Shown: positions 24,004 to 50,711 of the stretch, one piece after another | Position numbering within the stretch: the first letter of the stretch is position 1 | How the letters are laid out: every line of letters starts with the position of its first letter | Assembly (NCBI GenBank): GCA_017656385.1 | Contig: JACDNX010000001.1 | Span: 124,001-188,000 of the forward strand | Source of the DNA: Thermodesulfobacterium sp. | Lineage (GTDB): Bacteria > Desulfobacterota > Thermodesulfobacteria > Thermodesulfobacteriales > Thermodesulfobacteriaceae | Length of the DNA: 64,000 nucleotides | Reading direction: 5' to 3' | The notes under the pieces: model-generated | The model's database searches: none | What the model saw: the letters and a program-made list of their open reading frames with translations, nothing else | Told to the model about the DNA's origin: nothing | Program-made: the position numbers and the translations under genes

Positions 24004-24780
24004 ATGGTTTTCTTGATTTTTATTTTTGGACTCTGTATAGGGAGTTTTTTTAATGTATTGATTTTCAGATGGAGCAGGGGATTATCTATAAAAAATCCCA
24101 TATTTTCTGTATGTCCTAAGTGCGGAAAAACTCTCAAGTGGTATCACAACATACCTCTTATCTCTTTTATTCTTTTAAAAGGAAAGTGTGCATATTGCAA
24201 AGAGCCTATCTCTCTTATGTATCCTTTTGTAGAACTTTTAACAGCCTCTCTTTTTGTGTTAACTTATTTTAAATTTAAACCTTACGGATGGATACCTTTT
24301 TTGGGTTTTTCTTTTTTTGTACTAAATCTTGTTCCAATCTCATTTATAGACTTAAAAATAAAGGAAATTCCTGATATGTTAAGTTTGAGCCTTATTTTTG
24401 TAGGATGGATTTTTTCTTTATTTGGTTTTAATCCTTTTGTAAATTTTGAGACAAGTATTTTATCTGGTTTAGCAGGTATAGGACTTTTGTTTTTAATAAA
24501 CGAAATTTATTACCAGTTTTCTAAAAGAGACGGCATGGGAATGGGAGATTTTAAGCTTATGGGAGGAATTGGAGCTTTTTTGGGTTATAAAAGTTTTTAT
24601 ACAATTCTGATTGTAGCTTCTTTAACTGGTATTTTGGCTTATTTAATTGTTTATTTTTGGTATAGACTTAGAAAAATTCCTAAGGAGTTTGATTTTAAAA
24701 CTGAAATCCCCTTTGGTCCCTTTTTAGCTCTTGCAAGCCTCCTCTATCTTTTCAACATTCTACCACTTCCGAAGTGGTAG
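24004..24780 (+). CDS. pilD: Prepilin peptidase PilD (type 4 leader peptidase)
   Basis: PilD cleaves and N-methylates prepilins in the inner membrane and should process the pseudopilins encoded downstream. The 258-residue protein has the two CxxC pairs (CPKCG and CAYCK, about residues 39-70) and the two catalytic aspartates, in FIDLKIKEIPD and in the GMGMGDFKLMGG motif, with about seven membrane helices. The last codons (Leu-Pro-Leu-Pro-Lys-Trp-stop) are formed entirely by a 21-bp REP-type hairpin, so the C-terminus was set by insertion of that element. Confidence 0.93.
   Translation: MVFLIFIFGLCIGSFFNVLIFRWSRGLSIKNPIFSVCPKCGKTLKWYHNIPLISFILLKGKCAYCKEPISLMYPFVELLTASLFVLTYFKFKPYGWIPFLGFSFFVLNLVPISFIDLKIKEIPDMLSLSLIFVGWIFSLFGFNPFVNFETSILSGLAGIGLLFLINEIYYQFSKRDGMGMGDFKLMGGIGAFLGYKSFYTILIVASLTGILAYLIVYFWYRLRKIPKEFDFKTEIPFGPFLALASLLYLFNILPLPKW
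24760..24780. repeat. REP-type hairpin, copy 1
   Basis: Arms CTACCACTT and AAGTGGTAG around a CCG loop give a perfect 9-bp stem. It is identical to two copies beside the REP-associated transposase gene (49941-49961 and 50650-50670). It forms the 3' end of pilD, lies 8 nt from the convergent pilX-type gene, and may also act as a transcription barrier between them. Confidence 0.85.
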
Positions 24781-34189: not shown

Positions 34190-34581
34190 AGGAATGGTTT
34201 GAAGAGGTAGGTAATTCCTATTCTATAGATCCGGCTCTGCTAAAGGCTGTAGCAAAAGTTGAGTCATCTTTTAACCCTAGAGCAGTTTCTCCTAAAGGAG
34301 CTCTTGGACTTATGCAACTTTTACCAACCACAGCAGAGCTTGTAGGAGTAAGAAATCCCTTTGATCCTTTAGAAAATTTAAAAGGAGGAGCGCTCTACTT
34401 AAAAAAGCTCTTAGAAGAGTTTGGAGACCTTTCTCTTGCTCTTGCTGCCTATAATGCAGGTCCTGAAAAAGTGAGAGCTTATGGAGGAATTCCCCCTTAT
34501 CCAGAAACTCAACAGTATGTAAAAGCCGTTCTTTACTACTACCGCCTCTATAATTCGCACTTACGAAGTGCGAAAAGATAG
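33970..34581 (+). CDS. Lytic transglycosylase with DUF4124-like N-terminus
   Basis: The 203-residue exported protein should cut peptidoglycan glycan strands and may open the wall for pilus passage. Residues 1-23 are a signal peptide, 24-40 a DUF4124-like DIYKCVDPETGEVIFTN, and about 75-195 the SLT domain with the catalytic Glu98 in AKVESSFNPRAVSPKGALGLMQL and AAYNAGPEKV. It is divergent from the pseudopilin operons, as is its truncated copy at 29702. Its C-terminal SHLRSAKR is encoded by a hairpin (34554-34574) related to the REP elements. Confidence 0.92.
   Translation: MKRLFEVLLLVFILIFSLSDAFADIYKCVDPETGEVIFTNFKNEIFGKKCQLYIRERTKINKNRSSFYTYSIKEEWFEEVGNSYSIDPALLKAVAKVESSFNPRAVSPKGALGLMQLLPTTAELVGVRNPFDPLENLKGGALYLKKLLEEFGDLSLALAAYNAGPEKVRAYGGIPPYPETQQYVKAVLYYYRLYNSHLRSAKR
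34554..34574. repeat. REP-like hairpin, variant form
   Basis: Arms TTCGCACTT and AAGTGCGAA around an ACG loop form a 9-bp stem. It has the same plan as the CTACCACTT element: CACTT-NCG-AAGTG core, different outer bases. It encodes the last residues of the transglycosylase. A partial copy, ATCGC-GAAGT-GCGAT, lies at 34613-34627 just before the convergent ttcA stop. Confidence 0.65.
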
Positions 34582-48496: not shown

Positions 48497-49837
48497 ATGA
48501 AGGTAAGCAAATGGAAGGTTTTAGGTATTGCAGGGGCTTTGGTTTTAGGCTATGCAGTAGCAAGTGATGCAGCTCAGATTAAGGTTGATGATGACACCTT
48601 TGCAGACCTCGGCTTCTGGATGAAGGTAAGGTATAACAACTTTGATGACAGAGCTGATAGCTCCGGTAATGGTTTGAAGACTCCTGATTACAGCAGGAAT
48701 GTGTTTGATGTGGTTGATGCGAGGTTCAACATTGAGGGTCAGATTAACAACATTGTTCAATTCTATGGTGAAGTTGTAACAAGTGGTGCTTATTCAAGCG
48801 GTGTGTATGATGCTGTAGGACTTTCCCGTGGTACCAATGCAAAGCTTTCTGAAGGTGGTATCAATTTGGTGTTTTTACCCGAGCTTCAGTTAAGACTTGG
48901 AAAGATTCGTATCCCATTCACCAGAGATCAGCAGGAAGCCCGTTATTCCTACATCGTCCAGACAGACTGGCTTTATGACCCACAAGGTCTTTTTACTTAC
49001 TGGAAGAAGGGACTTTTAAGACTTATGGATGGTGGAGCAGTTCTTCACGGAGAGCTTGCAAAGGGAATGCTTAGATACGATGTCGGTGTATTCAATCAGG
49101 CTTCAGATGATGAGCCATTAAACAGCGTTGCCTGGGCAGCAAGAGTAGAGTTCACACCAACCATGCTCGGCTTTAATCCTGAAACCAAGACATCGGGAAG
49201 GGGATGGTTGCACGACACCTATCTCGGTAAAAAAGGAGACATTTTAAGCATTGGTTTAGGATATTTTACTCAGGATGTATATGCAGCTTATCAGGGCCAA
49301 GTTACCTCCGGATCCGGATCAAAATCATTTGATGCTTTAACAGGTTATTTTACAGGAGGAGCATTGCTTCCATATGATGTCAGTGGTACTCCTGCCTCAA
49401 ATCCTAAAGAGTTGGATGTTGATGCCTGGACCATTGACGCCTTTCTTGAGAAGAGGTTCGGCTGTGCGGTTCTCAACCTTGAGGCGGCCTATGTGAACTG
49501 GGACGACAGCCATTTAGGTACTAATAACAAAAAAGAAGATTCCTACTACTGGTATGCTAAGGGACAGATTCTTTACGATCAGGTTGTAGGAATTGGAAAA
49601 CCCGCTCTTTATGTGAAGTATGACTATATTGAAGCAGATAATATGTATAGCAACGACGACTTTGAGATGACCCGCTGGGGTCTCGGTGTGAACTACTACA
49701 TTGCCGGAAACGCCGCCCGTCTGGTTGTTGGAATGGATAGTGTCTCCTACGACGACGGAGCGGACGATATTCTGGATGAAACCCATCTTGAAGATAACAT
49801 TACTGATTGGTTTGTCCAGGCTCAGATCATGTTCTAA
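48497..49837 (+). CDS. Outer-membrane beta-barrel porin
   Basis: The 446-residue protein has a signal peptide (KVSKWKVLGIAGALVLGYAVASDAA, cleavage after about residue 26), then a long stretch of alternating aromatic and polar residues. Examples are FWMKVRYNNF, DARFNIEGQINN, LQLRLGKIRIPF, ALYVKYDYIE and a final WFVQAQIMF, with C-terminal Phe as barrel proteins require. It lacks an SLH domain. Substrate unknown. GC content and codon use look richer than the neighbours, as expected for a highly expressed gene; three promoters and a strong terminator support that. Confidence 0.87.
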   Translation: MKVSKWKVLGIAGALVLGYAVASDAAQIKVDDDTFADLGFWMKVRYNNFDDRADSSGNGLKTPDYSRNVFDVVDARFNIEGQINNIVQFYGEVVTSGAYSSGVYDAVGLSRGTNAKLSEGGINLVFLPELQLRLGKIRIPFTRDQQEARYSYIVQTDWLYDPQGLFTYWKKGLLRLMDGGAVLHGELAKGMLRYDVGVFNQASDDEPLNSVAWAARVEFTPTMLGFNPETKTSGRGWLHDTYLGKKGDILSIGLGYFTQDVYAAYQGQVTSGSGSKSFDALTGYFTGGALLPYDVSGTPASNPKELDVDAWTIDAFLEKRFGCAVLNLEAAYVNWDDSHLGTNNKKEDSYYWYAKGQILYDQVVGIGKPALYVKYDYIEADNMYSNDDFEMTRWGLGVNYYIAGNAARLVVGMDSVSYDDGADDILDETHLEDNITDWFVQAQIMF

Positions 49838-49915: not shown

Positions 49916-49961
49916 CTACCACTTCGGAAGTGGCAGATTTCTACCACTTCCGAAGTGGTAG
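49916..49961. repeat. Inverted pair of REP hairpins upstream of the RAYT gene
   Basis: Copy 2 (49916-49936) has arms CTACCACTT and AAGTGGCAG with a CGG loop; copy 3 (49941-49961) has arms CTACCACTT and AAGTGGTAG with a CCG loop. The loops show that they lie in opposite orientations, 4 nt apart, as in the paired REP arrays (BIMEs) of enterobacteria. Confidence 0.88.
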
Positions 49962-49998
49962 GGATAAACAAAAAAGGGTGGTAAGGGAGGTAAAAGAG

Positions 49999-50646
49999 AT
50001 GGAAGAAACCAGAGAAACCAGAATTTACCATGTATTAACCAAAAGCATCGCTGGATTTAAAGTATTTTTAAATGAAAAAGATTACCAAAGAATGTTAGAC
50101 CTTCTAAAATATTATCAATACAATCCCAAAGTGAAATTTTCTTACTACATAACCTTACTAAATCAAAAAAGCAAACTTTACTATGACCAGCTGAAAGATA
50201 AAAATCCCTTTGTTGAAATTATTGCCTACTGCCTTATGCCCACCCACATTCATTTAGCCCTGTATGAGGTATTAGAAGGAGGGATTTCTGAATACATGAG
50301 AAGGGTTTTAGACGGATATACAAGATATTTTAATAAAAAAATCAACAGAAAAGGACCTCTATGGGAGGGTAAGTTTAAAAGAATAGGAGTTACTTCAGAT
50401 GAACAGCTACTACATTTAACTAGATATATCCATCTCAATCCTACTACCGCAGGACTTGTTGAAAAACCAGAAGAATGGATCTATTCATCCTATAGGGAGT
50501 ATATAGGACTTGAGAAAGAAAAAATATGCTCAAAGGAAAACTTTTTTGATTTTTCAGAAAAAGAATACAAAAAATTTGTAGAAGACAGAATAGATTACCA
50601 GAAATCCCTTGCCCGTATAAAAAGTATTATTTTAGAACCAATCTAA
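49999..50646 (+). CDS. REP-associated tyrosine transposase (RAYT, Y1/HUH family)
   Basis: The 215-residue single-strand DNA transposase has the HUH metal site PTHIHLAL (His83, His85), the catalytic tyrosine region YTRYFNKKINRKGPLWEGKFKRI (Tyr107/Tyr110) and LTRYIHLNPTTAGLVEKPEEWIYSSYREYIG, all typical of TnpA-REP proteins. AGGGAGG lies at the right distance before the ATG at 49999; the frame is open upstream through the hairpins, but that start has no ribosome site. Hairpins flank it on both sides. Such domesticated enzymes spread REP hairpins rather than themselves. Confidence 0.92.
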   Translation: MEETRETRIYHVLTKSIAGFKVFLNEKDYQRMLDLLKYYQYNPKVKFSYYITLLNQKSKLYYDQLKDKNPFVEIIAYCLMPTHIHLALYEVLEGGISEYMRRVLDGYTRYFNKKINRKGPLWEGKFKRIGVTSDEQLLHLTRYIHLNPTTAGLVEKPEEWIYSSYREYIGLEKEKICSKENFFDFSEKEYKKFVEDRIDYQKSLARIKSIILEPI

Positions 50647-50649
50647 ATT

Positions 50650-50670
50650 CTACCACTTCCGAAGTGGTAG
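50650..50670. repeat. REP-type hairpin, copy 4, downstream of the RAYT gene
   Basis: Arms CTACCACTT and AAGTGGTAG with a CCG loop, identical to copies 1 and 3. It begins 4 nt after the RAYT stop and lies about 40 nt upstream of argH, where it may also end the RAYT transcript. Confidence 0.88.
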
Positions 50671-50711
50671 ATGGTGTGGTAAAATTTAGAAAATAAGGTA
50701 AAATATTTCTT

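Follow-up and report, generated by a model that had tools for sequence, protein, structure and literature searches.

A probable REPtron-like system without the GTAG tag in Thermodesulfobacterium: a RAYT-class transposase gene and low-copy dispersed palindromes

Introduction

RAYT proteins are a model for domesticated bacterial transposases, and the REP sequences that go with them are held to be marked by the tetranucleotide GTAG. In E. coli, GTAG lies 5' of the stem, several protein residues contact it and no mutation of it is tolerated (PMC8266576). The REPtrons of E. coli and Stenotrophomonas (TnpAREP of subclasses 2.2 and 2.5, GTAG REPs and REPIN doublets) combine a single-copy, vertically inherited HUH-Y1 gene, with a Y---NP motif, and gene-flanking hairpins that are also dispersed, in part as inverted doublets. 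The Thermodesulfobacterium locus described here shares these traits, and its short perfect palindromes with a 3-nt loop resemble the REPs of S. maltophilia (PMC8266576). It differs from the REPtrons by the absence of an unpaired 5' GT[AG]G, by the replacement of GTAG-contact residues, by far fewer copies, by outer ACC and GGT motifs on the two sides of the hairpin, and by a C-terminal protein tail of the FVEDRIDYQRSL...IK type.

Three other groups are close. Proteins of TnpAY1 subclass 2.1 (Bertels group 1; Quentin et al. 2018, PMC6006769) have the W[EQ], Y[IV]HLNP and SS tail motifs, all present in the Thermodesulfobacterium protein, which departs from them by PTH[ILF]H (here PTHIH) instead of NH[YF]H or NHVH and by a short tail that lacks the HTH extension. 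Subclass 2.1 yielded no REP-like sequences (PMC6006769), whereas the Thermodesulfobacterium gene is flanked by palindromes. TIRtrons are RAYT-like genes (TIRYTs) lying between dispersed non-GTAG repeats, which are sometimes self-complementary and in part form dispersed families and dimers (Di Nocera et al. 2013, PMC3733652). They resemble our locus in this arrangement, but their repeats are long TIRs with GGGGWSAS, and Thermodesulfobacterium has short perfect hairpins, many of them bearing the tip ACYT-NCG-ARGT. Since non-GTAG RAYT-like systems are thus already known, the present one is not categorically new. Finally, IS200/IS605 elements and their solo-end derivatives have the HUH-Y1 fold and a hairpin at each end, as seen here, but the Thermodesulfobacterium gene is single-copy and syntenic and has Y---NP, not Y---Q.

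In the literature searched we found no description of this RAYT/hairpin system in Thermodesulfobacterium; RepRanger gives palindrome counts for three other Thermodesulfobacteriota and does not use the word RAYT (PMC12306157). We conclude that the locus is probably REPtron-like, that is, a single-copy, vertically inherited (domesticated) RAYT-class HUH/Y1 transposase accompanied by low-copy non-autonomous palindromes. Dispersed palindromes without GTAG, in hairpin variants particular to each species, offer a natural series in which to follow transposase-hairpin co-evolution and GTAG replacement. With so few copies in such small genomes, the entire repeat population is easy to follow, and the thermophilic protein should suit structural work.

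Results

A transposase gene bracketed by hairpins

The window, that is, the whole stretch of DNA analysed, consists of 64,000 nt of Thermodesulfobacterium sp. (GCA_017656385.1, contig JACDNX010000001.1, positions 124,001-188,000, forward strand). An earlier note on it had described a RAYT-type Y1 gene between an upstream inverted hairpin pair and a single downstream hairpin, with another perfect hairpin copy 25 kb away; all of these were found in place (Table 1).

Table 1. Features of the RAYT locus and related hairpins in the window
Feature	Position	Strand	Remarks
Dispersed perfect hairpin copy	24760-24780	+	Between convergent genes
Divergent hairpin family member TTCGCACTTACGAAGTGCGAA, fifth copy in the window	34554-34574	+	Compensated outer stem; overlooked in the earlier note
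Hairpin, left half of upstream doublet	49916-49936	-	CTACCACTTCGGAAGTGGCAG, one foot mismatch (GGCAG); loop CGG on + is NCG on -
Doublet spacer, 4 nt, ATTT	49937-49940	.	25-bp period; spacing identical in G010, G013 and G016
Hairpin CTACCACTTCCGAAGTGGTAG, right half of upstream doublet, perfect palindrome	49941-49961	+	
RAYT/TnpAREP-type HUH-Y1 transposase ORF, 215 aa	49999-50646	+	HUH is H83-I-H85; predicted catalytic Y143 in YIHLNP
RAYT gene 3' end and the 3 nt preceding the downstream hairpin	50620-50649	+	Related sequence beside several solo hairpins
Hairpin downstream of RAYT, perfect copy	50650-50670	+	

A prepilin-peptidase-like ORF ends within the dispersed perfect copy, which provides its final codons and TAG stop. 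Allowing at most one mismatch, CTACCACTT matched the window 30 times, versus 12.7 +/- 3.6 in shuffles. Folded as single-stranded DNA, a single copy gave a 9-bp stem with a 3-nt loop (-6.9 kcal/mol), and the 46-nt doublet gave one 18-bp hairpin (-20.5 kcal/mol, z -10.9). The transposase would recognise the palindromes as such folded single strands, cut them through Y143 and rejoin them. Searches of the RAYT locus in Rfam and of RAYT in PADLOC returned no match; the phage search gave one weak match only, and the plasmid search only matches below 60% identity. The gene adjoining RAYT (window 48497-49837) encodes a conserved 446-aa protein, "porin-like" by look only, for which the Pfam search gave no match.

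The protein is closest to TnpAREP and is kept by selection

Pfam Y1_Tnp matched the RAYT protein (E 2e-6), and NCBIfam REP_Tyr_transpos scored 60 bits, under its cut-off of 80. The E. coli RAYT 4ER8 was the sole PDB match by sequence (E 2.7e-5). It was also the top structural match of the AlphaFold model (pLDDT 92.3), with Z 14.7 and rmsd 2.8 over 147 residues (model residues 5-210); the transposases of IS608, ISDra2 and IS200 ranked below it (Z up to 11.7). Aligning 25 sequences showed H83, H85, Y143, N147 and P148 to be invariant. The protein thus has the HUH and Y---NP motifs of the RAYT/TnpAREP class 2 and a Y1 fold closest to TnpAREP. Among the subclasses of Quentin et al. 2018, motif comparison fits it best to 2.1, from which PTHIH and the short tail deviate.

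RAYT is the sole Y1 gene found in its own genome. In five species (G000, the genome of the window, and G016, G010, G013 and G020) it has the porin-like gene on one side and argH on the other. Compared with its orthologues it has a dN/dS of about 0.10-0.14, dS being close to saturation; this ratio indicates that the gene is kept by purifying selection. Neither Y---Q nor a multi-copy transposase gene, the two marks of IS200/IS605, was seen.

GTAG is part of the stem

The earlier note had read the GTAG at the hairpin foot as the tag by which RAYTs recognise their REPs. This reading had to be abandoned. GTAG here is the paired 3' arm of the stem, not an unpaired 5' tetranucleotide, and it varies between species, being GTAA in G013 and GGAA in G020; of 80 hairpin copies, only 21 have a C-G foot pair. 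Alignment with 4ER8 showed that the E. coli GTAG-contact residues Q95, E100, H101 and R104 (numbering from PMC6006769) are replaced by E, R, I and T. Of the contacts W94, Q95 and R104, the first is kept as W122, and the other two have become E123 and T132; in the alignment of relatives, too, Q and R are not conserved in the columns equivalent to Q95 and R104. Canonical GTAG REPs go with an unpaired GT[AG]G directly 5' of the stem-loop and with conserved W94, Q95 and R104. Because neither the unpaired tetranucleotide nor the full set of residues was found when looked for, we do not count the hairpins among the canonical GTAG REPs. The missing hallmark also counts against the REPtron-like reading. 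Recognition would most likely rely on the hairpin itself (the CACTT-NCG-AAGTG tip with its directional 3-nt loop) together with the flanking GGT.

Dispersed hairpins form a small structured family

Hairpins were counted by pattern searches in the 1.67 Mb of G000 (44 contigs), with the pattern read backward as a control. The 21-mer matched at 11 places with at most three mismatches, and the core CACTTNCGAAGTG (CACTT-NCG-AAGTG) occurred 16 times; both backward controls gave 0. The REP family proposed in the earlier note is therefore borne out as regards dispersed hairpins that match those at RAYT, but the copy number is low for a REP family.

Mapping relative to genes placed 44 of 49 hairpin units outside ORF calls, 14 of the 49 lying between divergent genes, so that the hairpins flanking the gene are also dispersed and mostly extragenic, as in a REPtron. 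Doublets have a 25-bp period, or 42 bp for the older ones. Those of 25 bp are inverted in G000, G010 and G016 and direct in G013; inverted hairpin doublets with fixed spacing are the arrangement of REPINs and BIMEs.

Across the 80 copies, covariation was seen at stem positions 7, 8, 10 and 11, counted from the centre, and the observed pairing was reached in 0 of 500 shuffles, which somewhat overstate the significance, since related copies share ancestry. Positions 2-6 were invariant by construction of the search. Past position 11 pairing was weak (positions 13-14) or no higher than in shuffles. Further out, 31 of 44 units carried ACC in the 15 nt upstream and 33 of 44 carried GGT in the 15 nt downstream, where shifted positions gave about 5.4 +/- 2.2; the two motifs were present together in 22 units (0.65 expected), and none of the 64 trinucleotides was more enriched than ACC. 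Among the outer GGT pentamers GGTAA was commonest in G013, whose foot is GTAA rather than GTAG, but the numbers are too few to claim that they track the species-specific foot. The conserved features of the hairpin are the NCG loop, the covarying stem and the outer ACC...GGT motif.

Eight of 78 solo-hairpin flanks resembled the RAYT 3' end (0.11 expected); some of the eight are orthologous, so that fewer are independent. These solo hairpins look as if they were right-end derivatives.

Hairpins accompany the gene across genomes

Fourteen Thermodesulfobacterium genomes were compared, five with RAYT and nine without. The five carriers had 16 (G000), 23 (G010), 20 (G013), 8 (G016) and 11 (G020) core copies, with backward controls at 0. 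Of the nine RAYT-less genomes six had none, G014 and G018 had one each and G011 had two (Fisher test for the stricter core versus RAYT presence, p 0.003). Judging from argH identity, G011 and the carriers resemble one lineage, and the co-occurrence within the genus may represent a single event. The small number of copies per carrier (8-23) and the old copies in G014, G018 and G011 both count against the REPtron-like reading.

Hairpins also vary with the species, as CTACC...GGTAG in G000, G010 and G016, TTACC...GGTAA in G013 and TTCCC...GGGAA in G020, and in each species the dispersed copies match those at its own RAYT gene. Two further gene/hairpin pairs were found. G003 has a gene whose protein is 46-47% identical, and its hairpin occurs 31 times in G003 and 0-1 times in genus-mates. 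At a more distant Y1 gene, in G024 and G027, stands a hairpin that occurs 14 and 32 times in these genomes, respectively, and 0-1 times elsewhere. The association of gene and hairpin is therefore repeated elsewhere in the family. The earlier note had stated that its proposal would fall if copies did not exceed chance or were unlinked to RAYT genes in relatives; the copies lie far above chance and, with the association across species and the two further pairs, this test did not refute the proposal.

These data bear on whether the palindromes might be host regulatory sites, either transcription-factor operators or terminators, that flank a transposase gene by chance. Perfect 21-bp palindromes, mostly intergenic and with 14 of 49 units between divergent genes, would suit such sites. 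So would the downstream hairpin's weak resemblance to a terminator on the - strand and a T run after several G013 copies. We nevertheless regard this explanation as very improbable: the presence of hairpins tracks the RAYT gene, the variants match the flanks of each species' own RAYT, the doublet periods are fixed at 25 and 42 bp, the stem covaries as a folded structure and the neighbouring genes seem functionally unrelated. The terminator version was rejected, as only one weak terminator match was found at the hairpins.

A decayed hairpin with similar flanks was seen in the RAYT-less G018 (locus L284) and in the carrier G013 (L280). The two are probably one old orthologous copy; if so, the hairpin would have been present ancestrally and RAYT would have been lost.

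Signs of recombination at the palindromes

Comparison of individual sites revealed hairpins of G000 where relatives have an empty site, at C4 (empty in G010 and G011) and at C8 (empty in G010). At a third site, C9, a diverged hairpin is present in G016 and G010, and none in G011. The doublet upstream of RAYT stands in opposite orientations in G000 and G016 (one difference when compared inverted, five when compared directly). The RAYT gene of G013 is itself inverted, at its usual place between argH and the porin-like gene (L023, 1495-2130). In G000, a hepT/mntA-like HEPN-nucleotidyltransferase toxin-antitoxin pair lies between two direct 34-nt copies of the hairpin unit (L015, 1749-2720; G000:C2, about 82.2-83.2 kb), whereas the corresponding place in G010 holds one hairpin; a search of five relatives at the DNA level did not find the cassette. 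Taken together, the empty sites, the inverted doublet and transposase gene, and the cassette point to past recombination at the palindromes. Spread and recombination of hairpins within the genus are supported by the empty sites, the species-specific variants and the inverted doublet.

Host recombination could be involved in any of these events. Template switching at a quasi-palindrome could account for the doublet inversion, and recombination between flanking repeats for the gene inversion, so that both in-place inversions are possible without a transposase. Moreover, in the RAYT tract (window 49963-50709) G000 and G016 differ at one of 645 nt, versus about 90% identity in the upstream genes, which suggests recent recombination between these species. 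All this would suit passive repeats, spread by homologous recombination, gene conversion or template switching during replication, on which RAYT no longer acts. Such an explanation seems to us quite unlikely given the hairpins at sites empty in relatives, the gene-linked distribution in three gene/hairpin pairs and the conserved catalytic residues. Under the REPtron-like reading, the hairpins would instead be copied by the RAYT protein.

Palindromes flank related genes in many phyla

A search of genome contigs gave 56 loci encoding RAYT relatives. Matching palindromes stood on both sides of the gene in 23 of the 28 relatives with usable flanks, from many phyla, and in none of the shuffled flanks; the tip ACYT-NCG-ARGT was common to many of them. 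In the tree the five Thermodesulfobacterium proteins grouped with 99/99 support, amid proteins of Omnitrophota, Patescibacteria, Elusimicrobia and Scalindua, the deeper branches being poorly resolved.

Hairpins so close to the gene on both sides, the solo flanks resembling the RAYT 3' end and the toxin-antitoxin cassette between two direct unit copies are what an insertion sequence of IS200/IS605 type, or a TIRtron, might leave, its transposase and end hairpins being mobile and the solo hairpins being miniature or solo-end derivatives. Set against this are a gene that is single-copy and holds its place next to argH in five species, a tyrosine motif of Y---NP rather than the Y---Q of IS200 (PMC6006769) and the dN/dS of a kept gene. 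We consider this origin unlikely, and retain the REPtron-like reading.

More speculatively, the relatives might form a widespread, undescribed RAYT clade (Thermodesulfobacteriota, Omnitrophota, Patescibacteria, Elusimicrobia, Planctomycetota and others) that recognises the NCG-loop tip and flanking GGT, not GTAG. Its palindromes would then be portable ends, able to invert the transposase gene and to take up cargo such as the HEPN/MNT toxin-antitoxin pair. We put this forward as a tentative idea, about which we are more doubtful than confident.

In G024 and G027 (genus 5), with the different Y1 gene, the hairpin AAATAGGATCNGATCCTATTT often forms doublets about 97 bp apart. In the genus-2 system of G003, an array of six hairpins with a period of about 100 bp lies near a contig end (G003:C13:59-588).
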